41,984 nt of DNA. Origin: a virus. Location: positions 1-41,984 of IMG/VR virus record IMGVR_UViG_3300037010_002266; one strand, 5' to 3'. Positions 4,267-41,984 of this stretch are shown in pieces (position 1 is the first letter of the stretch; each line of letters starts with the position of its first letter). The translations under genes and the position numbers were made by a program. The notes below the pieces were generated by a model. It was not told where the DNA came from and made no database searches. It saw nothing but the letters and a program-made list of their open reading frames with translations.

Positions 4267-4703
4267 CTTTCATCATTATCCAACCTACGGCAGAGGAAGC
4301 CTGCCGAATGATGCCTTCCTTGAGGCCGTTTCTAGAAACCGCAATTGTGGAGTCCAAAGGAGAGCTTACTATTCAGGATGTGTTCAAGCTCGTTTTCACT
4401 CATAAGGCTAAGATATGGTTGGCCTTCGAGGAAACAAGTCACCAGCTCTATGGAGTTGCTATGACCGAAGATGTAGAATACCCACAATATAGTAATCTTC
4501 GGGTAACACTCCTTGGCGGGCGAGAGATGGCACAATGGCGGGATGAAATGGACGAGGCATTTTGTGGTTATGCCAAGGCACAGAATTTGCGCTTTATTGA
4601 GGTCGTAGGGAGGAAAGGATTTCAGCGTATGCTGGAAAACCTAGGGTATGAGTACGCATATACTATGCTCTTGAAGCAGGTGAAGGAGGTCTATTGTGGG
4701 TAA
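4263..4703 (+). CDS. GNAT-like virion/ejection-associated protein
   Basis: 146 residues, starting at the ATG that overlaps the previous stop. The C-terminal half (RFIEVVGRKGFQRMLENLGYEYAYTML) has the strand-helix-strand look of the acetyltransferase (GNAT) fold found in many phage genes just ahead of internal virion proteins; T7 gp13 is comparable in size and place. No clear acetyl-CoA P-loop (Q/RxxGxG/A) is visible, so catalysis is doubtful. It overlaps the next gene by 8 bases. It could act as a chaperone or as an ejected protein. Confidence 0.65.
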   Translation: MTFIIIQPTAEEACRMMPSLRPFLETAIVESKGELTIQDVFKLVFTHKAKIWLAFEETSHQLYGVAMTEDVEYPQYSNLRVTLLGGREMAQWRDEMDEAFCGYAKAQNLRFIEVVGRKGFQRMLENLGYEYAYTMLLKQVKEVYCG

Positions 4704-5508
4704 ATCCGCGGGAACGAATAGGACTGTTTCAACTACGAGTCCTCCGAGTTTTCAACAACCATATATTGATCAACTTCTGCATGATTCGCAGAATTTATAC
4801 CAGCAAGATGGGCCTCAATTCTACCCAGGTAGCACGGTAGCTGGACTAACAAATGGGCAGATACAGGCTAATAATCTGTTGACAGACAGGGCAGCACAGA
4901 ACACCCAGTTTCAGGACGACTGGATGATGCCAGCAGTGAAAACTGCCCTCACTGCTTATGATGTGGGGAATAATGCAGCTTTGGAAGGTGCGGCCAACGC
5001 CGCTATCCGCCCCATTATGCAACAGCTTAATGAACAAGTGTTGCCTGACCTTCGTTCTGGGGCAGTAGCGTCTGGCACTCTTGGTGGAACGCGCCAGGGT
5101 ATTGCAGAGGGTCAGGGTCTTGAACGAGCTGCTCGTGCTGCTTTGGACACAACATCCTCGATGTATGGTAACGCCTATCAACAGGGGCTAGGTTTGCTAA
5201 GTAATACAATTGGCCAAATGCCAGCTATTCAGTCTATGTCCTACCAGCCTGGACAGATCCTAGCTGGAATTGGAGATCAGCAGCGACAACTTGATCAGGC
5301 TAGGATCGATGAGGATGTTGCCAGATGGACCTATAATCAACAGCTTCCATACGTAAAGCTTGCTGAGTATGGAAACCAAATTGCTCGTCCCTTTGGCGGA
5401 CAATCTGAATCGGATGTCACAGCAACAGGCGGAGCTTCGCAGACTATTGGTGGAATTCTTTCTGGCCTTGGCTCTCTAATCGACTTGTGGAGGACTATTG
5501 GAGGTTAA
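4696..5508 (+). CDS. Internal virion / DNA-ejection protein (T7 gp14-like role)
   Basis: 270 residues. The start is GTG with GGAGGT five bases upstream. The N-terminus is polar (QQPYIDQLLHDSQNLYQQ) with a PQFYPGSTVAGLT segment typical of podovirus ejection proteins. The middle is rich in Ala and Gln helices, and the C-terminus ends in a Gly/Ile-rich hydrophobic segment (GGASQTIGGILSGLGSLIDLWRTIGG) able to insert in a membrane. It is the first of four genes leading to the giant ejection protein, which fits the usual three- or four-gene ejectosome order. The family assignment is by character and context. Confidence 0.75.
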   Translation: MGKSAGTNRTVSTTSPPSFQQPYIDQLLHDSQNLYQQDGPQFYPGSTVAGLTNGQIQANNLLTDRAAQNTQFQDDWMMPAVKTALTAYDVGNNAALEGAANAAIRPIMQQLNEQVLPDLRSGAVASGTLGGTRQGIAEGQGLERAARAALDTTSSMYGNAYQQGLGLLSNTIGQMPAIQSMSYQPGQILAGIGDQQRQLDQARIDEDVARWTYNQQLPYVKLAEYGNQIARPFGGQSESDVTATGGASQTIGGILSGLGSLIDLWRTIGG

Positions 5509-5511
5509 GTC

Positions 5512-6396
5512 ATGCTAGATCCAACAAACTATACATCTTTGCCTGACTGGTGGTCGCTGCTTTATGGAGACTACACCAATCCCTACTGGGCAGGTCAGTG
5601 GGATTCTGGGGGTGATGGAGGAAATGGGGTGCCGACGTTCTCGGTTACTGCGACTGGCCTTGCGGATAAGCCTCCGAATGAATATATCGACTATAGTTGG
5701 CTATTTCAGCCACCTGATAGTAATAGCTCTGGACCACCTACTACAAACGATCCTGGTAGCGGAGGAGCACCTGGACCCGGACCCGGAGAAACTTTGACAT
5801 TTCCTATAGATGTATGGGGACTGCCGATTAATGAATCGACTCCAGTGAGTCCAGATCCTTCAACAATTACTGGACCAGGACTGCTCCCTTCTACTTATGA
5901 TGATTGGCAGCCCACACCAGAAACACCCCCTGGTATGGACCCTACTCAAATACCATATGTGCCAGATGATGGAATTCCTACATTCTCAGTCACAACACAT
6001 AGTCCACAAGTACCGTATGTTCCAGATGATGGAATTCCTACGTTTCCGATCACAACGTATGCTCCACAAGTCCCTATCGGTTCTACCCTGCCGCCATTAC
6101 ATGATGTGACCTATATGCCGCGATTCTCACCAGACCCTACTTCGTTTACCACTCCAGGTAATACGCCGTCATCCCCACCAGCTGCAGGTAATGGGAGATC
6201 CCTTCCCTCTCTCCCCAATATCAATATTCCTGTGGGTAATGGTGCTCCAGGACCTGGTTTAATGGCTCCCGTTGTCGGAGATCCTAATCCAAAAAAGAGT
6301 CTTTTCACTGGAATCCCTAAACAAGCTGATATCCAGAGTCTCGCTGAAATCCTTGCCCCGATTTTGTTAGGAGGTTATAATGCTAAGTCGAAATAA
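5512..6396 (+). CDS. Proline-rich virion protein with tandem repeats
   Basis: 294 residues. The start is ATG after GGAGGTTAAGTC. The protein is strikingly rich in Pro, Gly, Thr and Ser and low in charge, with almost no predicted helix. Two exact-period 20-residue repeats with the core PYVPDDGIPTF occur near residues 145-190. It overlaps the next gene by 17 bases. It sits inside the ejection-protein cluster, so it may be a flexible virion component. No known domain is recognised. Confidence 0.65.
   Translation: MLDPTNYTSLPDWWSLLYGDYTNPYWAGQWDSGGDGGNGVPTFSVTATGLADKPPNEYIDYSWLFQPPDSNSSGPPTTNDPGSGGAPGPGPGETLTFPIDVWGLPINESTPVSPDPSTITGPGLLPSTYDDWQPTPETPPGMDPTQIPYVPDDGIPTFSVTTHSPQVPYVPDDGIPTFPITTYAPQVPIGSTLPPLHDVTYMPRFSPDPTSFTTPGNTPSSPPAAGNGRSLPSLPNINIPVGNGAPGPGLMAPVVGDPNPKKSLFTGIPKQADIQSLAEILAPILLGGYNAKSK
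5941..6080 (+). repeat. 60-bp tandem repeat in the Pro-rich gene
   Basis: About 2.3 copies of a 60-bp unit. The segment CCAGATGATGGAATTCCTAC recurs exactly 60 bases apart (from 5962 and from 6022). In protein it gives a PYVPDDGIPTF repeat. The copies differ mainly at third codon positions, so the protein repeat is under selection. Confidence 0.85.
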
Positions 6397-7720
6397 GCAA
6401 CAGTATCCTGCAACTGTACCGTGGAATCCTCAAAAACCTACTATAGCTATTCCCCAAATCCCAGGGCAACTTTCCCTTCCCCAAATCCCGATTTGGCAGC
6501 CTACAGTCCCTCCGATTGGTACAGTGGAGGGTCCGAATGAAGGATCTGGAGAGGGCCCAGCGCAGCCAACTGCACAGCCAACTGCACAGCCGGGAACTGT
6601 TCCAATATCTGTCCCAGGAAGTCCTGATGGACTTATGGCAAGACTTAAGGATCCCAGACTTGCCGGTTGGCTTATGGCAGTAGGTGCTGCTATGGGTCAG
6701 CCTCGTGCAGTTGGACAGACTGGGTGGGGACAAGCCTCACAGGCCTTGGCACAAGGCTATAACTACCTAGCAATGCAGAAGCAGCTTCAAGAGGCTCGAC
6801 AACGCCAGGCGTGGGAAGATCAGCTCAGGATTAATGCAGAAGCTCGTGCTAATTCTACAACACAAGCCCAGATTAACGCTACTAATGCTAATATTGCGCA
6901 AGGCTCTAGAAGTCTGGATCTTCGACAGGAAGCTCAGAATGCGGAGATTCTGGACAGGAAAGAGGAGCGCAAGCTTCGTAAGGAATACCAGGACAATACC
7001 TATAATCTTGGACTAAACGAGTTGATTTTGAAAAAGGATCAAATCGACAATGAGGTGGCACAGGCCGAAGCTCGACTCCAAGAGATGTCGACAGAGCGGA
7101 AAGATACGAAGGAGTATCGGGAAGCGCAGCTTGAACTGGAGCGGAAGAGGCTACAACAGGAAGTGCTATTTAATGCGGCCAAAATCCGCGCTACTAATGC
7201 AGAGGCTGGTCATCTTGACGCTTCTGCCTTGGAAGCTCAGGCAAGAGCTCAGGCGATTAAGGATGGCACCTATGGAAGAGGTGGTACTGCGGGCTACAAC
7301 GATCCAGCTATGATGGATGCCTACCACTACGCGAGTGCAGAAAACAACATTCGTGCGCAAGTTGAAAAAGAGCGCATGATGAATGGTCAGTCTCAAGAAT
7401 GGGCGGAGGCAGAGGTGCAGAAACGCATCGCTCCTATTAAGGCTGCATATGAGTCCGCCATTAATGTTCGAGATCAGCGAGTGTCTAAGACTCCTACCAG
7501 TCAATCTACTTCTAGTGCCCAGACTCAGGATACATCTAAACTTCCTACTATCCCAACCGCGAAAGGGGGCGATAATACTACAGATAAGGTTCCCGCTTCC
7601 CCTCCACCTGCGATCATTCGACAGCTCAAGCCGATGCAAACAGTAACTGGTCCTGACGGTTCTGTTTGGCAAAAGCAGGCCGACGGAAATATGAAAATGA
7701 TTCGCTCTCCTCAAAAATAG
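6380..7720 (+). CDS. Coiled-coil internal virion / ejection protein
   Basis: 446 residues. The ATG follows AGGAGGTTATA. The N-terminus is Pro/Gln-rich with QPTA repeats (about residues 60-73). A Gly/Ala segment (GWLMAVGAAMGQPRAVGQTGWGQ) follows, then a long highly charged alpha-helical/coiled-coil block (about residues 130-300, rich in Glu, Arg, Gln and Ala). The tail is low-complexity and ends in a small beta motif (TVTGPDGSVWQKQADGNMKMI). Its placement just before the giant ejection protein matches the second ejectosome subunit of podoviruses. No enzyme motif is visible. Confidence 0.7.
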   Translation: MLSRNKQQYPATVPWNPQKPTIAIPQIPGQLSLPQIPIWQPTVPPIGTVEGPNEGSGEGPAQPTAQPTAQPGTVPISVPGSPDGLMARLKDPRLAGWLMAVGAAMGQPRAVGQTGWGQASQALAQGYNYLAMQKQLQEARQRQAWEDQLRINAEARANSTTQAQINATNANIAQGSRSLDLRQEAQNAEILDRKEERKLRKEYQDNTYNLGLNELILKKDQIDNEVAQAEARLQEMSTERKDTKEYREAQLELERKRLQQEVLFNAAKIRATNAEAGHLDASALEAQARAQAIKDGTYGRGGTAGYNDPAMMDAYHYASAENNIRAQVEKERMMNGQSQEWAEAEVQKRIAPIKAAYESAINVRDQRVSKTPTSQSTSSAQTQDTSKLPTIPTAKGGDNTTDKVPASPPPAIIRQLKPMQTVTGPDGSVWQKQADGNMKMIRSPQK

Positions 7721-7732
7721 GAAGGATATAGA

Positions 7733-10700
7733 ATGAGTGGCTGGACTATCAATCCTCTCCAGACGGGACAGGAACTCGATGGCTGGACCCTTGGACCTGA
7801 TTCCTCCTCGCAATCTAATGCTACTAGAAAGTCGGGGTGGGAGATTAATCCTCTTCCCGCCCCTGCCTTTGGTCCACGAAAGCGAATCATTGATATCTCT
7901 TCAAGTATGCCTCGCGTCCAGCGGATCATAGATGCGTTTCAGACTGGGGTTGCTCAGAACGCACAGGCAATGGGCTCCTTCTTAGAGGCAAACACTCCAT
8001 TTAAGGACGCAGGGCAGTCACTTCGTGAAATTGCTGATAAGGACTACACAGCTCCTGTGATGAGTTTCACAGATTACCTTGCTGCATCAAAGCCCTCCGG
8101 TTTAGACCACGAGTCTGTAGCTAGTTGGCTCGGCAATCTTGCGGCAAATACTGGACAGTTTATAGCGGAAAACGTAGCTAACCAGATTCCTAATATTGCC
8201 GGAAACTACGCCTCCGCGGCGATGGGAGCTTTTGCTGGTGGTAAGGCTGGAGCAGTCGCCGGTCCGGAAGGGGCGGCGGTAGGTGGGACTCTTGGCTCTT
8301 TGGCTGGCATATATGGATACAATATGTTCCTCAATGCCGGGGCACATTATGCAGATTTAAGGGAAAGAGGGGTATCTCGAGAAGCAGCTAGAACTACCGC
8401 AGGATTTATTGGCGCTGCAAAAGCAGTCTTGGATTCAGCTCTTCCAGTAAAGTTGGGGGGAAGTCTTGCTGCAAAACTTGGGATGAATATTGCTTGGGTA
8501 CCCAAGGATGCGCTGAATAAAGCTCCAAACTTAGCCAAAGCTTTATTGTCTGGTTCTGTCATTGGAGGTGGAACGAATGCCGGTAAAGAGCTTCTAGATA
8601 TGCTAGGGGAGATGTACAATAAAGTCTACACTCCAGGCGAGGCTGTGGCTCGTGTTCTTAATTCTGGCGTAGCTGGTGCTATCGGCGGATCGTTTTTCTC
8701 TGGTGCTGAGTATGCTGCGGAAAGGGGACTTGAGAAAAATGCTCAGGAAGATCCTACAGGAGCTCCAGACCCGCGACTCACTGATCCTGGTGAGCCGGCA
8801 GAAGTTCCTCCTCCTTCTCCATCTATCTCACCAGCAGAAGCTCCCTCTGTCTCTGAGCTTCCTGGTGTTATCCGTCAGTCTTTGATGGAGCTTGGAGGTA
8901 CAAAGGCACTGTTTGATTCTTATACAGAGCCTGAAGTCAAAGGCATCCTCAATATGGGAAAGGGTGCTTCGGTTAAGCCGCTAGTTCGTGCAGGCCTACT
9001 TGAAGAGCATGATGGAAAATACTCCTTTACCAAGGTTGTAAACGGGGAAGGAACGCTCATGCAACATGAGAACTTCCCTGGGCTCTTTTATGAGGTATCG
9101 GAGGCAAAAGCCCCCACGCACTATATCTTTATGGACCCAAGTGTAAATCCCGAACCTCAACGTATTGATGTCCAGTGGGCAAATCCGCACTTGGGAACAG
9201 AGGATAAGTTCACCGTAAATGGGAAGTCTTTTGACTTCCTTGAGAATGCCGTGGACTATATCAAGGAAAGTGCTACGGAAGGCCTGAACTCTACTAATGA
9301 ACCGAGTATTCGAGGTGAGTTTACACCTGATGGGAAGCTCCGTGCGGGTCTTGATGTTGATAGCGCTAAGCAACCTTTTCGCAATTTGCTCAACACCACA
9401 GCTCCTGCACTAAGTGCTACAAAAGAAGCACTTCAAAACTCTATTGATGCAGTGAGATCCGTGCCTAATGGGCATGTCAACGTTTCGCTTTCTGCAAACG
9501 AGGACGGCACGCATACGCTCGTAGTTGAGGACAATGGTGTTGGAATGAGTCGGGAGCTTATTAGCAAGGCTTATTCTAGCATTGCTGAGCAGGGTGAGAA
9601 GTCTTCTAACCTTGAAAACAGTGGCGGCCTTGGTGTGGATATGGCAGCTATGCTCTCAGCAGGCCCTCTGAAGGTTACCACAACCACGAAGCTTGCAGAT
9701 GGCTCTTTCGAGAGGTCCACATTTTCTTCGACTCCTGATTCTCTCCTCAAATCTGGTGTGGAAGTCCAGACGGAGCATTTTCCAGCATCAGCGGACCTCC
9801 AAACTGGAACTAAGACCGAGGTTACGCTCCCAGAAAACTCACAGGTTTCGCAAGCGCATGATTTTTTAGATAAACTCAAGTTCTCCTCTAATCTTCCTGG
9901 AACAATCACAGTTAATCAGAAACCTTTTCCTGGGTCTAATGTATCTACGAATAATCACCAAGCTCGAGCTCCGTTTGTCGAAGGATCTCGGCTTTTTAGT
10001 CATGAGGTTCCTGGGATCGCGAACATAGATGTTTATGGCTCGAAAGAGAGAAATCAGGAGTCTGGTAGTGGTGTTCTCGATGTCCACGTTCTCGATAATG
10101 GGCTGTATCAATTTACTCAACACATTCCAGTAAAAGAGACATTAGGACTCCCGACATACCTCTCCTTCGACGTAAAGTCAAAAGTCAATCCTAGTGAGTT
10201 GAAAGAGTCCCCATTTAGCCCCAACAGAGAGTCTCTCAAAGAGCATATCACGGAGGCTCTGGAAAAGCTAGTAGATAAGAAGCTAATTAAACCAGGAGAG
10301 GAACAAGCTCGTAATCTTCTATCTCATACATATGAGAATCTACCTCCGGTTCCCGGCTCCGCTGTTCCGGGTCTAATGCACTCTGTTCTATTCGACGCAG
10401 GAAAGCGGCTTACACAAGAAGAACAGACAGCAATGCTCAAGAATCCGGCAGTTACCCAATTCACCAAAACTCTTGGTTGGGTGGTAAAGAGTATTAAGGA
10501 TAAACTGGTAAAGAACCCGGAGCTGTGGAGGCAGATTAGTAATACGGACTCCGTTCTTGGTGCGAATATTGAGCGCACTGGTATTCTACTCAGCGAAGAT
10601 GCTCTTGGGATCTGGCTACCGCGGCCTGGGTCTGATGGAAAGGCGACAGTCCTTATCAACCCCTTCTGGATGCTGGATAAGGGAAACGTTTTAGCTAAGT

Positions 10701-13700
10701 CAGATTACGGCTTTGAGCATCCTACCAAAGACTCGTCTTATATCTACACCTCCGATGATACTCGTGTCGATATACAGCGGCATGAGGATGGTAAATTCTA
10801 CCTGGAAGATAACAAAGCAGAAGAGCCAGTTGGGCCATTCAATACTCTACAAGAGGCCGAGGCAGCTGCTGTTAAACAGTACAACCTTGAAACCGAACCA
10901 ATAGTTCAACTCTCCCCGCACCAATACGTCGCTTCTGTTTGGGAGACCGTTCGCCACGAGATCCTACACGATATTTGGAATCAAAAAGATCACGGCCCAG
11001 ATTTTGCGCTTGGCTCTAACCTTTTGGCAGCAATGCTTGGGGAAGACTATAACAAATTTCAACAGGAAATAGAACATGCCCTCACAAAACGTAATGCGGA
11101 TGGTTCGCTTGAGGTTCATCCAGAGCTTGAAAGCGCGCTTCAAATCTACCGGGATTCCAGAGGAAGACCAGAAACTGAGAAAGACCTTCTTGGAGGAGAA
11201 AGAAGCGGCGTTGACGACGTTCCTCAATCACAAGGGAGCGACGGAAGCGGACAAGAAGGAGATGCTACAGACCTGGGACGACGCGGAAGAAGCGGTTATG
11301 ACTCAGCTACTACCACCACCGGAACCGAAATACCCGCAAGTGACCATTTTGCCACCAGCACAATAAAGAGCTTCAACCGGATGATGCGAAATGCTAGTCT
11401 GGATGTACAGAAAGAAGTGAGGGGTCACCTTGGGACCTTATACAAGCTGCTCAGGCACGCCTACTTTCTCACCCAACAAGTCGAGCAGAATCCTGATAAC
11501 CCATACGGCAAATCCTATATGAACTCTATGCGGGAGTGGGTTAAAGTCCGCACCGGAATTCTACTTGAAGCAGACAGCCTTAACCGCCAGTGGCATAAAT
11601 TCGGCCCAGAGGCGCTGAGGAATGTCTCTCAACTTGTTCGAGAGGTGTCAACTAAATCAGATAAGCTCGGACGTCGGTTATCCACGGATGAGGTTCTGGA
11701 GATAGCTAAGAAGTTCAATGGGAATACAGACCGTCTTATGGAGGTCTGGTCACAGATTGACCTCTCCATGCAACGCGCCCTACAGATGCTCTATGAGTCC
11801 TTGGTCCATGAGGCAGAGCGTACCTTTGGAATGGCAGCGCCACTTCGGATCTTTGAGATAGATAAGGAATTTGCCGATCTTCGCAACCGCAACTACTTCC
11901 CCGCTACGCGCTTTGGCAAATATGGGATTCGTGTAGTGGCCCAGGAAAACATGACGTGGAACGGGGAAAGTTTCAAGAAGGGGGAACCAATCCTCTTTGA
12001 GACTCGTGAGAGTGAACGTCAGGGGCTGCAACTCAAGGAAGCCATAGCTAAAGAGTTCAGCGGAAACAAGGTTAGCATTTCCGAACGCTATCTGTCCGAC
12101 GTAGAACACTCGTTTCTTAATATGCCGGAGTCCTTGGTAAGGTTGGTCGAAGACCGCCTAGGCTTGAATGAAGAGGATCTGGCGAAACTCAAGCAGCTCC
12201 AACATGAGCTTGCTCCAGGGCGGGGGTTTGTCAAGCACCTCATTAAGAGGAGGGGCATACTTGGCGCATCCCTTGACGTACCAAGGGTCTATAATGACTA
12301 CTATCGAAAACTCTCTGGCCACATCGCTAGAATAGAGACATCATATATGGCAGAGGAGGCTCTGGCCGGGGCCAAACAATGGGCAAATGAACATAATTCT
12401 GATTATAGAGCTCATTACTTTGCGGAGGCCTTAGAGACTCACTACAATGATATGAGGAACCCCGGAAACGAGTTTGGGTCCATTGCAGGAGCAATTTATA
12501 CGCTAGTATTTGGATTCAATCCCCTATCCGCCGTAGTGAATCTTACTCAGGTTCCAGTGTTCACATACCCGTATCTTGCTAAACGGGCGGGAGATATAAT
12601 TACAACCAAGGCCCTTGCTATCGCAATGAAGAAGGTTAGCTCGAGTATGAGACCTAACCTGTTCTCTGGGTCTCCGGAAGAGCGGAACAGTGTATACTCT
12701 GGCGAAGATCGGGCCATGTTCGACCGAGCCGTATCTGATAACTTCCTCACTGAAAGCATGGCGGGGGAAGTTGCGGCTATGGCTTCTGGTAACCTCCTCA
12801 CGAAGTACTTCGAGCATGGTCTTGCACTTAATCACTATACCCAGATGCTTCTGGGAAAGTCTGTCATCTTCCACCGGCTTTCGGAAGAGTTCAATCGACG
12901 TGTTACTTTTCAAGCTGCGCTTGAAGTTGGCCGGACTCTGGGCAATCGAGGCGATGCACTTTATGAATTCGCCAGGGAAGCTGTGGAAAAAACCCAGTTC
13001 GAGTATAGCTCCTGGAATCGTCCGCATATGATGAGGGGGAAGGCTTCCCTCCTCTTCATATTCAAGGCGTTTCTGCAAAACTTCCTCTATTTTGCCTCTA
13101 CCAACCAAGGCGGAGCCCGCTTTTGGCTCATGCTCACTGCACTCGGTGGCTTGAGAGGTATTCCCGGAGCTGATGATATCATGGATCTTCTTGAGCTTAC
13201 AGGAACGTGGGGAAAGAAGTTCCTCGGCCTAGAAAACCCGAGGGTGGATTTGAGGAAAATGGCCAATGACTTCACTGAGGCAGTGGGGCTCAATCCTGAC
13301 CTTGTGATGAATGGGTTGTCCAGGTACAGTTTTGGGCTTGCTGGACTTGCTCACCTGTTCGGCATTCCGTTTCCGTCCGCAGATTTCAGCTCTTCAATGC
13401 AGATTTCCCGAGTCATTCCAGGCATTAAGTCACTGAAAGGTACCCTTGAGGGAACCATGAAGTGGCCAGATGCTGTTGCCCAGGGTGTCGCGGATATCAC
13501 TGGAGCTGCTGGCACGATGGGATTGAACTTCACAAGGGCAGTTCTTGAGGACTCTCCAGCTAACGCGGGGAATTACTGGGCAATCTCTTCCGCCCTCCGA
13601 AACGTCGGTAAGGCGTTTGAAATGGCTACTACTGGTGCCTATCGTACGCCGGACGGTAGGAAGCTGGTGGATGTTGACTTAGCGAAGCCGGAACAAGTGG

Positions 13701-14056
13701 GGGAGATCTTTATGCAAGCCCTGGGAAAGAAGCCTACCAGAGTGTCCAAAATTCAGGATGCCAATGCTGCCATTCGTGAGCAGATGGCATTCTACTTTGC
13801 GTGGAGGGATACAATCTTTTCCCATTGGGCAGCAGCAATCGGAACCAAGGACTCGGAGGGGCAAGCCAAAGCGAGGAAGGAATATCGGCAGTTTGCCGAG
13901 ACTGCGCCGAAGCAATTTGTCCTTACCCCCGATCAAGTCTATCAGACGGTCTATAGTAGAGTTAGAGGTAGAAAGCTCCAGGAACTGGGCCTTCCCCCTC
14001 AAGAACAATTCCTGCAAATCTACCAAGACTATCAAAATTCTTTTGATCCTAAGTAG
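7733..14056 (+). CDS. Giant DNA-ejection protein with GHKL ATPase and HExxH motifs
   Basis: 2107 residues, ATG start after AGGATATAGA. Residues about 160-200 are Gly/Ala-rich (glycine-zipper-like), as in pore-forming ejection proteins. Residues 565-640 carry a full Bergerat ATP-binding signature: N-box E565 and N569 (KEALQNSIDAV), G1 box D600-M605 (DNGVGM) and G2 box G631-G634 (GGLG). HEILH at residues 1075-1079 matches a zinc-protease HExxH. Charged helices follow. FGFNPLSAVVNLTQ (about residue 1592) and the C-terminal helical region resemble large polyvalent/ejection proteins of podoviruses. It is probably packaged and injected. Function of the ATPase and protease parts is inferred from motifs only. 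The stop overlaps the end of the convergent primase-like gene by 8 bases. Confidence 0.88.
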   Translation: MSGWTINPLQTGQELDGWTLGPDSSSQSNATRKSGWEINPLPAPAFGPRKRIIDISSSMPRVQRIIDAFQTGVAQNAQAMGSFLEANTPFKDAGQSLREIADKDYTAPVMSFTDYLAASKPSGLDHESVASWLGNLAANTGQFIAENVANQIPNIAGNYASAAMGAFAGGKAGAVAGPEGAAVGGTLGSLAGIYGYNMFLNAGAHYADLRERGVSREAARTTAGFIGAAKAVLDSALPVKLGGSLAAKLGMNIAWVPKDALNKAPNLAKALLSGSVIGGGTNAGKELLDMLGEMYNKVYTPGEAVARVLNSGVAGAIGGSFFSGAEYAAERGLEKNAQEDPTGAPDPRLTDPGEPAEVPPPSPSISPAEAPSVSELPGVIRQSLMELGGTKALFDSYTEPEVKGILNMGKGASVKPLVRAGLLEEHDGKYSFTKVVNGEGTLMQHENFPGLFYEVSEAKAPTHYIFMDPSVNPEPQRIDVQWANPHLGTEDKFTVNGKSFDFLENAVDYIKESATEGLNSTNEPSIRGEFTPDGKLRAGLDVDSAKQPFRNLLNTTAPALSATKEALQNSIDAVRSVPNGHVNVSLSANEDGTHTLVVEDNGVGMSRELISKAYSSIAEQGEKSSNLENSGGLGVDMAAMLSAGPLKVTTTTKLADGSFERSTFSSTPDSLLKSGVEVQTEHFPASADLQTGTKTEVTLPENSQVSQAHDFLDKLKFSSNLPGTITVNQKPFPGSNVSTNNHQARAPFVEGSRLFSHEVPGIANIDVYGSKERNQESGSGVLDVHVLDNGLYQFTQHIPVKETLGLPTYLSFDVKSKVNPSELKESPFSPNRESLKEHITEALEKLVDKKLIKPGEEQARNLLSHTYENLPPVPGSAVPGLMHSVLFDAGKRLTQEEQTAMLKNPAVTQFTKTLGWVVKSIKDKLVKNPELWRQISNTDSVLGANIERTGILLSEDALGIWLPRPGSDGKATVLINPFWMLDKGNVLAKSDYGFEHPTKDSSYIYTSDDTRVDIQRHEDGKFYLEDNKAEEPVGPFNTLQEAEAAAVKQYNLETEPIVQLSPHQYVASVWETVRHEILHDIWNQKDHGPDFALGSNLLAAMLGEDYNKFQQEIEHALTKRNADGSLEVHPELESALQIYRDSRGRPETEKDLLGGERSGVDDVPQSQGSDGSGQEGDATDLGRRGRSGYDSATTTTGTEIPASDHFATSTIKSFNRMMRNASLDVQKEVRGHLGTLYKLLRHAYFLTQQVEQNPDNPYGKSYMNSMREWVKVRTGILLEADSLNRQWHKFGPEALRNVSQLVREVSTKSDKLGRRLSTDEVLEIAKKFNGNTDRLMEVWSQIDLSMQRALQMLYESLVHEAERTFGMAAPLRIFEIDKEFADLRNRNYFPATRFGKYGIRVVAQENMTWNGESFKKGEPILFETRESERQGLQLKEAIAKEFSGNKVSISERYLSDVEHSFLNMPESLVRLVEDRLGLNEEDLAKLKQLQHELAPGRGFVKHLIKRRGILGASLDVPRVYNDYYRKLSGHIARIETSYMAEEALAGAKQWANEHNSDYRAHYFAEALETHYNDMRNPGNEFGSIAGAIYTLVFGFNPLSAVVNLTQVPVFTYPYLAKRAGDIITTKALAIAMKKVSSSMRPNLFSGSPEERNSVYSGEDRAMFDRAVSDNFLTESMAGEVAAMASGNLLTKYFEHGLALNHYTQMLLGKSVIFHRLSEEFNRRVTFQAALEVGRTLGNRGDALYEFAREAVEKTQFEYSSWNRPHMMRGKASLLFIFKAFLQNFLYFASTNQGGARFWLMLTALGGLRGIPGADDIMDLLELTGTWGKKFLGLENPRVDLRKMANDFTEAVGLNPDLVMNGLSRYSFGLAGLAHLFGIPFPSADFSSSMQISRVIPGIKSLKGTLEGTMKWPDAVAQGVADITGAAGTMGLNFTRAVLEDSPANAGNYWAISSALRNVGKAFEMATTGAYRTPDGRKLVDVDLAKPEQVGEIFMQALGKKPTRVSKIQDANAAIREQMAFYFAWRDTIFSHWAAAIGTKDSEGQAKARKEYRQFAETAPKQFVLTPDQVYQTVYSRVRGRKLQELGLPPQEQFLQIYQDYQNSFDPK

Positions 14057-15251
14057 ACTCGCGGCCTGGTACAGCAATCCAAAGCGTCACGCCACTCTGT
14101 ACCTGTACTAGATACCCTGCCTCCACCGCAGAAGAGATGGATTCCGCAAATTCCTTGGATGACATTTTGTGAAAGAACATTTGATATAGCTCTGTACGGC
14201 GAATCTTCCCCCTCGAGCGGACTACGTTCAAGATGTCGCTAGCCTTTTCCATCTCAACGGAGGTGGACAAGGACTTGAATACCTTGGGGATATCGCTCTC
14301 GACTGTACCTAGAATCATTGCGGCGTCCTCTAGCTCCTTCTTTGTAATTTGCAAGTCCTCTCTTCTAGCTGCGGATAGTACCATTGCGAGCTTGTGGATG
14401 TGGGTCTGGGTCCGTGCGAAGTAACCAGAGATCCCAGTCCTCTGTGGGTCCCCTTCCTCTAGCTTATCACAATGCTTCTCGTACCAAGATTCGCCAAATT
14501 GGTATGCCTCCTCGGTTAGTCGAAATTCCCCCTTCAATTGTGATATTTCCTGTAGGTCATGGACGAGCTTAAGTTTCAGTGTCTCTAGCTGTGCAGGGAC
14601 AATGAGTCTCTGTGGATAAGCAATCCGTCGTTTCTTCTTATACCCGAACAGCCAGATACAGCGAGATGAGAACCCTCCGTCGATCAGTGCGCGGGGGAGG
14701 TTATCACTCAACCAGGCCGGCGTAGTACACCCGAGGATATTGAGCCATGGGTTAATGGCCTCTGACTTACCAGCACCCATAGTCCGCCGAGCGAAGTTGC
14801 CAATTCTCCCGTCCCATAAATCTACGAGGAGATCAAGGAAGTCTGTGTCCTCAAAGTTAATAAACGTGCCGAGCTCTGAGACAAAGAATGTCAGGCAACT
14901 CATTTGATGATAATCCCCGTTGTCAAAGGGGACAGCTTCACTTACCTCTGTAAGCTCTGCTATCAATGATTGCCACGTCAGGGAGTCGGGGCCAAAATGA
15001 ACCCCAGATATTTCTCGGAGAAAGTCCTGTCCAATATGAATGGTTGTGGACTTCGTTACAATACCAGGCGGGGCGATGAAGAGGATGTAGAAATTGGGAG
15101 TCCACTGGAAGTACCCCATGTTTATCCACGTCTTTCTCCTCAATGCTGCAGCTATGACACCTACACCAGTCCAGAAGTGGAAGTGCTCTGGAGCCTCGTT
15201 GAAGTGGTTGTAGTCAATGTAGTGCTTGAGCCAGTCATCGAGTAGCCTCAT
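14049..15251 (-). CDS. Primase/helicase-like ATPase (DUF3987-type)
   Basis: 400 residues. The start is ATG with AGAGGT upstream, overlapping the polymerase stop by 17 bases. The Walker A-like loop PPGIVTKST (residues 61-69) sits after a hydrophobic strand (FYILFIA). It has Thr where the usual Gly precedes the Lys. A Walker B-like strand FFVSELG follows near residue 122. The C-terminal 60 residues look like a winged helix. The layout fits the DUF3987-type replication ATPases common beside phage PolA genes. It is probably the replicative helicase/primase component, but no zinc finger or primase catalytic motif is present. It is the last gene of the leftward unit. Confidence 0.75.
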   Translation of the reverse strand: MRLLDDWLKHYIDYNHFNEAPEHFHFWTGVGVIAAALRRKTWINMGYFQWTPNFYILFIAPPGIVTKSTTIHIGQDFLREISGVHFGPDSLTWQSLIAELTEVSEAVPFDNGDYHQMSCLTFFVSELGTFINFEDTDFLDLLVDLWDGRIGNFARRTMGAGKSEAINPWLNILGCTTPAWLSDNLPRALIDGGFSSRCIWLFGYKKKRRIAYPQRLIVPAQLETLKLKLVHDLQEISQLKGEFRLTEEAYQFGESWYEKHCDKLEEGDPQRTGISGYFARTQTHIHKLAMVLSAARREDLQITKKELEDAAMILGTVESDIPKVFKSLSTSVEMEKASDILNVVRSRGKIRRTELYQMFFHKMSSKEFAESISSAVEAGYLVQVQSGVTLWIAVPGREST

Positions 15252-17634
15252 TCGTTACCTCTAGTGTAGATGGAGTAGTTAACGACATGTTAACGTGGTA
15301 CTTTTCCATATGCGCCCAATTAGTCACACCCACCTTGCAATCCGCAGGAATGATGAGGGGATCTTGATAAGGCACAACCACGTTGTTGAAGAAAGAGAAA
15401 ATAGTAGCTACGCTGTAGTGAAAAGCCTCCCTCCGAATCTGCGTTACCACAGAGTCGTGTACCTGCATGAGGAGCTGAACATTGTTGTCATGCGTCGCCT
15501 CATATCTATCGTAGATCTGGCGAAGCACCTTGTTAATGACAATTGCCACTGTGGATTGGGGTGTCCAGGCCAGAGCTTCTGGGAGAAGCCCCTCCGGTCG
15601 GTCGAAGTACATAATGCGGAAGCCGAACCGATTGCTCGTTGTCCGTGTGATTAGAAGCTGCTGTTCTACTCTTTTATGCCAGCGGTGTATGCCCGGATAT
15701 GCCTCGAACCATCGACGCTGCGCAACCTCTGCTTGATGACGAGTAATACCACAGTTCCTCGCCATCGTATTAGCAGACCCTCCATAATTTGTACCATGAA
15801 GGAACATCTTTGCTTTACGGTAAGGCATCCCGGTTACCTTCGTGCCGACCTCCTTGTAGATGTTCACCCCCTTGTTCAACATCTGTTTCAGCTCGTTCTC
15901 CTCGCTCTCCCAGACAACTACCCGCAAATCGGCCTTTGATAGGTCAAACTCTGCCAAGACATACCCAGGATCGGGAAGGAAAAGCTCCCGCACATTCGGC
16001 ATATCGGAGGGATAGGCATCCATGTCATCCTCTTCCATGTGCATCACATTCTGGAGATTTGTGCCATAACCCATAGGATTGGAGGAGGAATTGAAACGGA
16101 AAGTGATGGTGCCTACAGGGTTGTAGCTTGTATACAGGCGACCATCAGGTGTCTCGATGTCAACGAAATTAGATTTGACAAGGCGAAGTGACCTACTTTC
16201 TGCTAGCCTCTTGGTGACCGGGATGAGAAGTGGTTCCTTCTCCGCAATCTTAGCAAGTGCGCTGTCGTCAGTTGTAGGTGCCTTCGTCTTACGGTTGAGG
16301 ATAGCAGGAATCTTCAGATCAGTGTAGAATAGAGTGGACAACTGTTTGGGGCTGTTGGGATTAACCTTGTGCCCGAAGATCTTCTCGAGCTCCGACCACC
16401 GTTTCTGTATTGCAACGTCCAAGCGGAAACTCATGTCCGCCCGAAGCTCTGGGGCGCTGTTCACCCCACGAAGCATCATGTGTAGGATGGGCTCGAACAA
16501 GGACATCTCGAAGTCGAGCTGTTCTTGCAACACGCTCTGTGCAATAGCATTACGAAGGCTAGCCGCGACTTCCCAAGTGTATACGCAATCTTGGCAGTTG
16601 TAGTACCATAGATCACTGTCTCGCTGATAGCCTTCCCAGTTCTTGTAGTCATGCTTCCAATAGCGATAGAACTCGCAGTGGAGGGAAGCTAGATAGTCCA
16701 ATGACTTCGGCCGGCCGGGGAACAGAACCCCTTGCGCAATCATGGTGTCAAAGGACGGGATGACTTTGATACCCCACCGCCATGCAAGATAGAAAGAGTC
16801 ATACAACATATTTTGGTTGATGACCTTCCGCTTCTCAAACGCTCGGCGAATTGCTCCAATAACGGCTATTTCATCCGCTGCACTCCAATATGAACCACCC
16901 CTATCTATGGAAGTAATTGGGATGCACATAGCTTCGGTCTGGGATCGTCCAATACCTATGCACTTAATCTGACGACCACCAGTTTCGATGTCACAGACTA
17001 CCTCCTGGGGAAGGTCATTTAGATATTTCATGACTTCCGACAGCGTAGGCTGCAGGTGAAACTTCCAGTTCGGCATCCGGATCTCTCGGAAGTGTGACTC
17101 TTGTTCCGCCCGCCGAAGGTCCGCGATTGTGTCTACGCGGTCGGCGTACGAGCGTAGGACGAAAGAGGGATGGAATGTTGGGATGACCTTCGGACCCTCT
17201 ACCAGGGTGCAGGGCAAGATACTCCCCCGCCAATTTGTCACGCCGAATTCTCCAGTGAGTGCCCAAAGCGGTGTGTTGCCAAGGGCAATAATCACAGCTG
17301 GGTTGACTCGTCGTATAGCGGCCTCGAGATCACGGATGCCCTCCGTTACTTGAGGGGCAGCGTAACGGTCGTTGAATTTGGTAAGGGGAAGGATGCCTTC
17401 CTGTTTTGTCTTGATCCACACACTAATGTCGTTGAACTGTGGTCTGTAGTTACAGACATTGGTGATGTAGCACTGCTCGCGGAAGATGCCAGCCCCTCGA
17501 AGCATCCTATCAAGCTCCCACCCACAGGTTCCCACGAATGGTTTTCCATGTAGCTCTTCTTCTGCACCTGGGGCTTCCCCCACTATCATAATAGCCGCGT
17601 TGAGTGGTCCGGTTGGAAGGACTTTTTTAAGCAT
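15235..17634 (-). CDS. Uracil-DNA glycosylase / family A DNA polymerase fusion
   Basis: 799 residues. I place the start at the ATG at 17634, with GGGAGG four bases upstream; the frame is open a further 17 codons. Residues 1-180 match family 4-type uracil-DNA glycosylase (GEAPG 19-23, KPFVG 31-35, HPSF 155-158) but lack the N-terminal CxxC that helps bind the Fe-S cluster. A DEDDy 3'-5' exonuclease follows (DIETGG 215-220, then NQNMLYDSF and YYNCQDC). The polymerase has motif A D564-R571 (DLSKADLR), motif B K609-G618 (KMFLHGTNYG) and motif C H726-D727 (VHDS). It is the replicative polymerase. The glycosylase may remove or sense uracil during copying. The start overlaps the methyltransferase stop by 8 bases. 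Confidence 0.92.
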   Translation of the reverse strand: MLKKVLPTGPLNAAIMIVGEAPGAEEELHGKPFVGTCGWELDRMLRGAGIFREQCYITNVCNYRPQFNDISVWIKTKQEGILPLTKFNDRYAAPQVTEGIRDLEAAIRRVNPAVIIALGNTPLWALTGEFGVTNWRGSILPCTLVEGPKVIPTFHPSFVLRSYADRVDTIADLRRAEQESHFREIRMPNWKFHLQPTLSEVMKYLNDLPQEVVCDIETGGRQIKCIGIGRSQTEAMCIPITSIDRGGSYWSAADEIAVIGAIRRAFEKRKVINQNMLYDSFYLAWRWGIKVIPSFDTMIAQGVLFPGRPKSLDYLASLHCEFYRYWKHDYKNWEGYQRDSDLWYYNCQDCVYTWEVAASLRNAIAQSVLQEQLDFEMSLFEPILHMMLRGVNSAPELRADMSFRLDVAIQKRWSELEKIFGHKVNPNSPKQLSTLFYTDLKIPAILNRKTKAPTTDDSALAKIAEKEPLLIPVTKRLAESRSLRLVKSNFVDIETPDGRLYTSYNPVGTITFRFNSSSNPMGYGTNLQNVMHMEEDDMDAYPSDMPNVRELFLPDPGYVLAEFDLSKADLRVVVWESEENELKQMLNKGVNIYKEVGTKVTGMPYRKAKMFLHGTNYGGSANTMARNCGITRHQAEVAQRRWFEAYPGIHRWHKRVEQQLLITRTTSNRFGFRIMYFDRPEGLLPEALAWTPQSTVAIVINKVLRQIYDRYEATHDNNVQLLMQVHDSVVTQIRREAFHYSVATIFSFFNNVVVPYQDPLIIPADCKVGVTNWAHMEKYHVNMSLTTPSTLEVTNEATR
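15276..15294 (+). promoter_or_regulatory. TAGTTAAC-N5-GTTAAC motif, copy d
   Basis: A perfect-spacing copy lying inside the 3' end of the polymerase gene, about 25 bases upstream of the primase-like start on the other strand. Both TTAA cores are 11 bp apart. It is read on the + strand although the surrounding genes run leftward. Confidence 0.5.
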
Positions 17635-18889
17635 TGAGCCTCCCACTCGCGATAGCGAAAGCCGCCGGATCATTGTCAAAGCCAATGGCTCGGAGGTTGA
17701 GGGCCCTGGCAGCCTCGAACACTACCCCGCTTCCGCAAAAAGGGTCAAGGACTACACTACCTGGGATAACACTTCGCAGGAGCAAGTCTCGATAAAGATC
17801 CACGGGTTTTTGTGCTGCATGGATCTTATTCACAACCGCCGGATACACCAGCACATCGGAGTAGACGCCAGTCACCATCCGCTTCCCGCGATTGGCAAAT
17901 ATGATTGTCTCATAGTTGCGGCGTGGACCATAGTGTGGCTTTGGAGTATAGCCAGTGTTTTTCACCCAGACGAGAGGACGGTTCCACACTTCCCAGTCGT
18001 TGAGCTCGAGGATCTCCCTAATCTCTATCCAATGACTCAAATCGCAGAACATATAGAGGTGCGCTTGTTCCTTACACACTGCGGTTAGGGCGGTGATTGT
18101 GTTGGCGAGGAGGGACTCCGTTTCTTCCCATGAGTCGGAGTAGTTATGCGTCTCGATGACAGTCTCTACACCAAACTCTCCCGCATTAATCCCATAGGGA
18201 GGGTCGGTGATTACCACATCCACCGAGGCTGGAGTAACAAATTGCTTGATCCCCTCGACCGCATCTATATTCTCCAGTATGTGGGTGGAGGATACTGGCA
18301 CAATTTTCTTGGCCATCGCCGTGCGGAACTCGGTCTCAAGTATGCGAGTTAAGTTCTTCATTGCCTGGGCTTCGCTCGAGGCAGACGCTACCTCCGGTCG
18401 GTTCAGGTTTTCTGCAAGCAGTGTTCGATTCCGCACGACTGTGGGATTCAGGGTGGCACCTCCCCGCTCCCTAATCTCCTCCACCGTCTTCACGGCGGTC
18501 CAATTCGGGTCCGCCTCTTTTCGCATCTTGTGTAGCTCGGCGGTTGCCAGCGCTGTCTCCTTCCAGGATAGATCCACGCGGCGGAGGTTCTCCTCAAGCT
18601 CAATCTCCTTTGCCATAATGGGATCGATGTTCTCGAAGAGGGTATAGGGCATCATGCCTGGTGGCACCCCTGGGATGGCACGGCCTGTGGCGTGGAGCTG
18701 TTTGATTGCCCTCATTCGCCGTTCGCCGGCCATAAGTAAAAAGCCCCCATTTCCATCTTCGCGGACCACGGGGGGATGGAGGACACCGAATTGTGCAATG
18801 GACTCGGCGAGGTTGTCAATCTCCTTCTGATCAAAGACCTTTCGATGTCTGCCTTCTTCAATCGTTACCTGGGAAATTTGAGCGAGCAT
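17627..18889 (-). CDS. ParB-like nuclease domain / DNA methyltransferase fusion
   Basis: 420 residues. The start is ATG after GGAGAATCA. Residues 1-110 form a ParB/Sulfiredoxin N-terminal domain (GERRMRAIK at 55-63). Residues 200-420 are an amino-methyltransferase with catalytic DPPYGIN at 229-235 and the SAM-binding motif DPFCGSG at 382-388. This is motif IV before motif I, the beta-class order, for N4-cytosine or N6-adenine. No restriction partner is nearby, so it probably protects phage DNA from host nucleases or marks it for regulation. It sits between the SSB-like gene and the polymerase. The ParB part probably gives DNA binding rather than partitioning, since no ParA is present. Confidence 0.9.
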   Translation of the reverse strand: MLAQISQVTIEEGRHRKVFDQKEIDNLAESIAQFGVLHPPVVREDGNGGFLLMAGERRMRAIKQLHATGRAIPGVPPGMMPYTLFENIDPIMAKEIELEENLRRVDLSWKETALATAELHKMRKEADPNWTAVKTVEEIRERGGATLNPTVVRNRTLLAENLNRPEVASASSEAQAMKNLTRILETEFRTAMAKKIVPVSSTHILENIDAVEGIKQFVTPASVDVVITDPPYGINAGEFGVETVIETHNYSDSWEETESLLANTITALTAVCKEQAHLYMFCDLSHWIEIREILELNDWEVWNRPLVWVKNTGYTPKPHYGPRRNYETIIFANRGKRMVTGVYSDVLVYPAVVNKIHAAQKPVDLYRDLLLRSVIPGSVVLDPFCGSGVVFEAARALNLRAIGFDNDPAAFAIASGRLNA

Positions 18890-41272: not shown

Positions 41273-41984
41273 ATGCGGATCATTGTGTGTTTACTCATTG
41301 CGCTGTCTGCCTCGGCCATGAATAACGGTGTGATTATCTATGATGCCTCCGGCATCACACAGACGGGCCGCCCCGTGACGCTTTCGCACGTGTTCGCGCA
41401 AGGCGAGTTTCCTGCGAACTTTTATCCCAAGCCGCGAATTAGCGGCGTGGTTCCATCCGCGTGGCAGGTTGACGTCAAGAATACCTGGCCGGACGGGAGC
41501 GTGATGCTGGCTTTCGTCAGCTTCTCGGCGACTGTTGCGGGGAATGGTTCATCCGCCGTGGACTTTGTAAAAGATGCGAACCCCTGCCACCTCGGGAACC
41601 CGGCTGTCTGCCAAGCTGCTGCTCTTGACCAGTCTGGCATGGTGGGATTCGCTTCCGGGGCATGGGACTTTGTGCTGCAAGGTACAGCCAACAGCGTTAC
41701 CTACTCCGCGTCGGCGAAGACCATGTTGGGCGCCGGAGCCTGGACATACTGGCTGCGCGGCCCGGTGGTGACGAGGGTTCTGGTGGAAGATGTCTCCCGC
41801 CCGAATCCTGTCTACGACTTCGGCTGGCAGTGGGATGGAACCGCATGGCAGGCTCCATCCGCGGACACCTATAGGAGCGTCCACCCGATGTTCATGGTGA
41901 GCTTCTATCCTGGCTACACGGCTGGGGTCTACGCCGAGGTGATGGCGCAGAACGCCTGGACCTCCAGGCTCCAGCGGCAGGTGT
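41273..41984 (+). CDS. Large secreted tail spike / polysaccharide-lyase-like protein, 5' part (partial)
   Basis: 237 complete codons up to the window end. The last base is the first base of the next codon (TTC), which continues in phase at position 13 of the window after the 12-base overlap. The start is ATG directly after the previous gene. The N-terminus MRIIVCLLIALSASA is a textbook export signal (A-S-A cleavage). The next domain includes GRPVTLSHVFAQGEFP and NTWPDGSVMLAFVSF, resembling the N-terminal barrel of exo-rhamnogalacturonan lyase-type proteins. Joined length is 1046 residues. It is the likely host-glycan depolymerase. Confidence 0.82.
   Translation, partial: MRIIVCLLIALSASAMNNGVIIYDASGITQTGRPVTLSHVFAQGEFPANFYPKPRISGVVPSAWQVDVKNTWPDGSVMLAFVSFSATVAGNGSSAVDFVKDANPCHLGNPAVCQAAALDQSGMVGFASGAWDFVLQGTANSVTYSASAKTMLGAGAWTYWLRGPVVTRVLVEDVSRPNPVYDFGWQWDGTAWQAPSADTYRSVHPMFMVSFYPGYTAGVYAEVMAQNAWTSRLQRQV

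Follow-up and report, generated by a model that had tools for sequence, protein, structure and literature searches.

Why would a phage carry the signatures of an ATPase and of a metalloprotease within one giant protein, and what could such a pair do? The question is raised by virus record G000, a stretch of 41,984 bases (here called the window), in which an uninterrupted open reading frame (ORF) with an ATG start encodes the 2107-amino-acid protein P0001. An initial annotation described this product as an ejection protein with a complete GHKL ATPase signature and an HEILH protease motif, and every motif that it quoted lies at the residues given (E565, N569, DNGVGM at 600-605, GGLG at 631-634, and HEILH at 1075-1079). 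Comparative analysis and structure prediction show residues ~530-1125 to be a predicted two-enzyme module, in which an Hsp90/rIIA-type GHKL ATPase comes first and a zinc protease of the WLM/Wss1 kind lies behind it. The layout of the gene and its module is given below.

7733-14056, plus strand: ORF of the giant ejection/polyvalent-type protein P0001 (2107 amino acids), with PHROG giant-protein and DarB-like matches at its C-terminus.
9341-9937, plus strand: predicted GHKL (Bergerat) ATPase N-domain, residues ~537-735, placed by Pfam, by conservation in 38 relatives, and by a model matched with Foldseek to TRAP1/HtpG; key residues E565, Q568, N569, D572, D600-N601-G602-G604, K623, G631-G632-G634, and G692-T693.
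9938-10372, plus strand: middle/transducer-like domain, residues ~736-880, with an invariant R832 in SPFSPNRESLK and a sub-threshold alignment to the HtpG loop LPLNVSREILQ.
10430-11107, plus strand: predicted WLM/Wss1-like zincin metalloprotease domain, residues ~900-1125, placed by an invariant H-E-H...H, by profile matches, and by the order of helix and strands in the model.
10709-10894, plus strand: small beta-rich insert, residues ~993-1054, between the zincin NPF and HEILH (strands 482-517 and helix 520-530 of the model).
10955-10969, plus strand: HEILH, within helix 1062-1082, with the candidate third ligand H1087 at 10991-10993.

Relatives of the module were collected with a single-protein query, which found two loci, and then with alignments built from those, which found more through viral scans and one genome scan. 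Among 71 proteins with a related ATPase and enough downstream sequence, 61 contain an HExxH 300 to 650 residues past the DxGxG (shuffled expectation, 1.0), and 43 have the HExxH followed by a His at close spacing (shuffled expectation, 0.2). After clustering of the ATPase region at 50% identity, HExxH was found in 25 of 30 clusters, including 23 of the 28 viral ones. These counts are to be read with the caveat that the alignment queries also contained the zincin; the pairing is nevertheless not purely an artefact of the query, because many relatives (e.g., L041, L042, and L044) were accepted on the ATPase part alone. The count of modules leaves out ATPases lacking HExxH (L049, L050, and L068-L072), which resemble other GHKL proteins. 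Carriers range from free-standing modules of 646 to 1035 amino acids (L053, L011, and L051) to a protein of 5952 amino acids (L032). The pairing of ATPase and zincin is thus not a one-off but a conserved module, present in dozens of giant phage proteins.

The full module had no match among 50,697 phage records searched with five members or among 72,556 plasmids searched with two. Neither annotated phages nor plasmids yielded an acceptable close relative, the matches being limited to the ATPase region of rIIA-like proteins, topoisomerase VI-B, or unannotated fragments.

An alignment of 38 members, including the window protein, to which the others are 16 to 30% identical, shows which residues are retained. 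E565, D600, G602, G604, K623, G631, G634, G692, R832, H1075, E1076, H1079, and H1087 are invariant, and Q568, N569, D572, G632, and T693 are conserved in at least 90% of members. This invariance of the catalytic residues of both enzymes at such low identity argues against a pseudo-ATPase or pseudo-protease kept for structural reasons, an explanation to which a relative outside the rule lends something (L057, ORF from nt 6162, reads EEVAH where HExxH is expected; its ATPase is retained and its protease is probably dead) and which we consider very improbable.

The GHKL assignment of the initial annotation is upheld. Two Pfam families match above their curated cut-offs, HATPase_c_3 (E = 7.3e-9, residues 561-653) and HATPase_c (E = 5.4e-8), and HATPase_c_3 is recognized in 38 of 38 relatives. 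When the 38-member profile was compared with PDB sequences, HtpG ranked first (E = 8.6e-20), and all 60 of the 60 matches listed were Hsp90s. In direct scoring, rIIA of phage V13 reached 74.5 bits and HtpG 73.9 bits, while other rIIA proteins reached 40 to 65, MutL 25.5, and GyrB 1.8. Because HtpG and some rIIA proteins score alike and well above MutL and GyrB, the ATPase is assigned to an Hsp90/rIIA type within which sequence cannot tell Hsp90 from rIIA. The earlier proposal of an Hsp90/MutL/MORC-type enzyme is therefore narrowed: its Hsp90 part holds, with rIIA alongside, MutL is disfavored by sequence, and MORC was compared by fold only. MutL and GyrB were rejected as identities on their scores, although MutL, MORC, and topoisomerase VI-B do occur, at lower rank, among the fold matches.

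A loop of the Hsp90 middle domain carries an Arg that touches ATP. HMMER aligns R832, in SPFSPNRESLK, with the HtpG stretch LPLNVSREILQ, which makes R832 a candidate for an Hsp90-like catalytic Arg supplied by the middle domain. This is a lead, as the stretch scores 0.7 to 0.9 bits.

Structure prediction was carried out with AlphaFold2 on window residues 520-1170 and the 38-sequence alignment, giving a mean pLDDT of 80 and a pTM of 0.68; an earlier model from three sequences (pLDDT 44) was set aside. The model shows a Bergerat fold where the initial annotation had proposed to look for one, at residues 540-800. In Foldseek searches against the PDB, TRAP1 was the best match (E = 1.2e-12, probability 1.00), followed by HtpG, topoisomerase VI-B, MutL, GyrB, and MORC. 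Among viral models (BFVD), the best match was the unnamed protein A0A516L4L2 (777 columns, E = 1e-18), and many rIIA proteins came next.

The kinship with rIIA raises the possibility that the giant protein is a membrane protector or an anti-prophage-exclusion factor, made after infection rather than packaged, that has acquired a protease. The BFVD matches, an hhalign probability of 98.8 to rIIA across the ATPase, and RIIA PHROG matches in 16 of 38 relatives favor this explanation. However, the hhalign alignment is confined to the ATPase, HExxH is absent from the four rIIA proteins scanned, and the gene sits in a virion operon. Furthermore, unlike in the rIIA loci examined, no rIIB-like gene is recognized beside the window gene: the downstream neighbor (14049-15251) is primase/helicase-like, and the two upstream neighbors have no family match, so that one of them could be a diverged rIIB. 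An rIIA-like function is improbable in our estimation. The kinship with Hsp90, whose members TRAP1 and HtpG are the nearest solved structures, suggests instead a chaperone with quality control, in which the Hsp90-like part refolds proteins unfolded by passage through the tail and the protease removes the failures; one carrier, L095, also has a DnaJ-like domain. We give this explanation as little credence as the rIIA-like one: the ATPase is equally close to rIIA, no Hsp90 C-terminal dimerization domain is recognized (the zincin occupies its place, and no Hsp90 Pfam domain was found in the window protein or its relatives), and WLM proteases are not known to serve in general quality control.

The protease half was examined through its relatives because HEILH alone had no Pfam support in the window protein. 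The initial annotation had taken HEILH as a protease motif that would fail if it lay in a helix with no third metal ligand. It does lie in a helix (1062-1082, confidently modelled, following three strands at 946-975), and a conserved candidate third ligand, H1087, stands immediately before the next helix (1089-1102); the motif claim is strengthened by this additional His, which is invariant together with H1075, E1076, and H1079. The strand and helix order of the model is as expected for a zincin. A zincin profile of 26 relatives, in which HExxH and the third-ligand His are likewise invariant, matched the WLM-domain metalloprotease SPCC1442.07c (E = 1.8e-5) and Wss1 (E = 1.3e-3) among PDB sequences, the alignment spanning NP...HELxH...HdxxF. 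Of the 38 module members, 8 have a Pfam match to WLM and 3 to YgjP. The first reading of a protease motif is thereby refined to a predicted WLM/Wss1-like zincin. Members of the L004/L075-L087 family have their third His at a greater distance, in a GHGxGF-like context. Within one alignment of relatives, the beta-rich insert is confined to the window protein; weak DUF5633 similarity lies nearby.

Zincins of polyvalent proteins coordinate zinc through a Glu as third ligand (Iyer et al. 2017, PMC5512222). No such Glu was found at the conserved third position of the module, which is a His, and the module zincin therefore appears to belong to a different lineage. This bears on the main rival explanation, self-processing, in which the zincin cuts the giant protein or its ejection partners and frees pieces during maturation or after ejection, with the ATPase acting as an independent effector or as the trigger of cleavage. 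It is the main rival because published work proposes that polyvalent zincins process the polypeptide itself (PMC5512222), and it accords with the position of the module in mid-chain, with long sequence on either side, and with its presence in chains of up to 5952 amino acids. Against it stand the His of WLM type in place of the Glu, the steady distance of HExxH behind the ATPase, and the free-standing modules of 646 to 1035 amino acids, which leave little to release and argue against self-processing as the sole role. We judge it unlikely, though clearly less so than the rIIA-like and chaperone explanations.

The remainder of the protein and the neighboring genes indicate where the module may act.

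7733-9289, plus strand: N-terminal region, residues 1-519, Gly/Ala-rich at 139-340, with a phrog_6958 match.
11495-13192, plus strand: C-terminal region, residues 1255-1820, common to giant phage proteins including the module carriers L059, L092, L093, and L096 (blastp).
4696-5508, plus strand: DNA ejection protein family gene upstream (phrog_4287, E = 1.9e-24).
5512-7720, plus strand: two genes (5512-6396 and 6380-7720) that separate the ejection gene from the giant gene, with no PHROG or Pfam match.
14049-17685, minus strand: convergent primase/helicase-like and DNA polymerase genes (phrog_14296 and phrog_17; blastp to 15-16 loci).

The giant gene closes the virion operon, behind the ejection-protein gene and other virion genes. 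Genes for terminase, portal, and major head protein lie elsewhere in the window. Sister phages L075-L087 have a homologue in the same position, before the same primase/polymerase pair. The C-terminus (residues 1363-2062) matches giant phage families, one of them annotated as DarB-like antirestriction (phrog_11358, residues 1375-2061, E = 5.8e-46; DarB-like phrog_10089, E = 4.3e-11). LPD38 was ruled out as the identity of this C-terminus, there being no Pfam match and an hhalign probability of 0.1 against the C-terminal region of L002. In the N-terminal region, a Pfam scan of residues 1-519 found no domain, and the virion structural protein family phrog_6958 matches residues 139-340 weakly (E = 1.1e-4). 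The earlier description of both ends as ejection/polyvalent-like is supported by the C-terminus and the operon position. In the manner of polyvalent proteins, unrelated enzymes (ATPase and zincin) are combined in one large phage polypeptide, encoded among virion genes. From gene position and giant-protein relatives, packaging in the virion and ejection with the DNA are likely.

Some other carriers are polyvalent giants with LPD38, SNF2-methylase/helicase, ParB, or DnaJ domains, such as L002, which has LPD38 and a helicase part. A 4616-amino-acid phage protein (L095:1304-15151) has DnaJ-like, Strawberry-notch helicase, and ParB_N domains together with the module, and a 2803-amino-acid one (L033:7031-15439) combines the module with a NUDIX hydrolase domain. 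On contigs of metagenome-assembled genomes (MAGs) of Pseudomonadota/Myxococcota (L011, L012, and L015), a free-standing module adjoins an SNF2-methylase gene encoding 1640 to 1770 amino acids; L013, of the same MAG group, is broken off by the contig end. The MAG pair may derive from a phage, as a remnant, or may represent an undescribed pair of mobile or defence genes. Known defence systems were considered and set aside: PADLOC recognized nothing in the window module, some relatives gave weak hits to TmtA/REase, and the resemblance of the SNF2-methylase neighbor to DISARM/Zorya is mainly confined to the helicase part.

WLM/Wss1 and SprT proteases act on DNA-protein crosslinks, an action described for SPRTN in PMC5127644. 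A DNA-protein setting fits the module because of this activity and because L011, L012, and L015 adjoin an SNF2-methylase gene; the ejection/virion context, the polyvalent carriers, and the MAG neighbors are likewise the reasons for favoring an action linked to the entering DNA. We therefore propose an ejected, ATP-gated protease acting upon proteins bound to the incoming DNA or close to it, a proposal to which we give roughly even chances. The giant protein would be packaged and ejected together with the DNA. By analogy with other Hsp90/GHKL proteins, ATP binding would close a dimer via the N-domains; the closed dimer would clamp or remodel a client protein or protein-DNA complex and so bring the C-terminally attached protease onto the client. 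Proteins on or near the entering DNA (host nucleoid proteins, defence proteins, or trapped complexes) may thus be cut within minutes of the start of infection. Several points weigh against this proposal. Pfam gives no direct match to the zincin of the window protein, the alignment of R832 to the Hsp90 loop is by itself below significance, and Iyer et al. (PMC5512222) favor processing of the own polypeptide as the role of polyvalent zincins. Foldseek TM-scores against Hsp90 are also ~0.3 across the whole model, so that the domains are supported and their arrangement is not.

Two features of the window outside the operon were also observed. An apparent ParB-methyltransferase fusion with ParB-like and DNA methyltransferase matches (phrog_67, 4715, and 3264) lies at 17627-18889 on the minus strand. 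Bases 1-12 are identical to bases 41973-41984, and, judging by the coordinates, the reading frame that starts at 41273 and is still open at the right edge continues without a frame change into the ORF whose end is at 2441; because of these identical ends and the end-spanning ORF, a complete genome of about 41,972 bases may be represented by the contig.

A broader proposal, that an Hsp90/rIIA-type ATP-gated clamp joined to a Wss1-like protease constitutes a new class of energy-dependent protease, ejected by many phage lineages to strip and digest DNA-bound host proteins, is more speculative and in our view rather unlikely to hold in full. The known ATP-dependent proteases, as far as we are aware, use AAA+ ring motors; coupling a metalloprotease to a GHKL clamp would, if true, solve the problem in another way. 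Uncultivated phages carry the module widely (23 of 28 viral sequence clusters have the protease), and it is a concrete candidate, open to testing, for the means by which giant ejected proteins protect DNA as it enters. No description of a GHKL or Hsp90-like ATPase paired with a zincin/WLM protease in phages was found in the main texts of the open-access papers searched.

Comparison with known systems places the module between several of them. With the Hsp90s HtpG and TRAP1 it shares a GHKL N-domain with the same boxes, being closest to them in the PDB by both sequence (8.6e-20) and fold (1.2e-12), and a candidate Arg loop lies at the corresponding position of the middle domain (sub-threshold alignment), but it has a zincin in place of a recognizable Hsp90 C-terminal domain and sits inside a giant phage protein. 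The phage rIIA lysis inhibitor/membrane protector has the same GHKL subtype, an STK-like lid, and a SREEL-like Arg loop, whereas the rIIA proteins scanned have no zincin and their genes are followed by rIIB-like genes. WLM/Wss1 and SprT/Spartan proteases resemble the zincin in HExxH and a downstream His in an H-[DEGN]-x-x-F context, with a significant WLM profile match; unlike them, the window zincin is joined to an Hsp90-like ATPase, and no ubiquitin-related parts were seen in it. Polyvalent proteins, including P1 DarB (PMC5512222), likewise unite enzymes of unrelated kinds in a single giant phage polypeptide in a virion-gene context; LPD38 or an SNF2-methylase part occurs in some module carriers, and the window C-terminus matches a DarB-like family. 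However, the main text of that survey mentions no GHKL/Hsp90, WLM, or SprT domain, and its zincins have Glu as third ligand. The SprT-like metallopeptidases of jumbo phages (PMC7824862) are also phage-encoded zincins thought to cut host proteins, but they are described with no link to GHKL, which is named there only for rIIA and topoisomerase.

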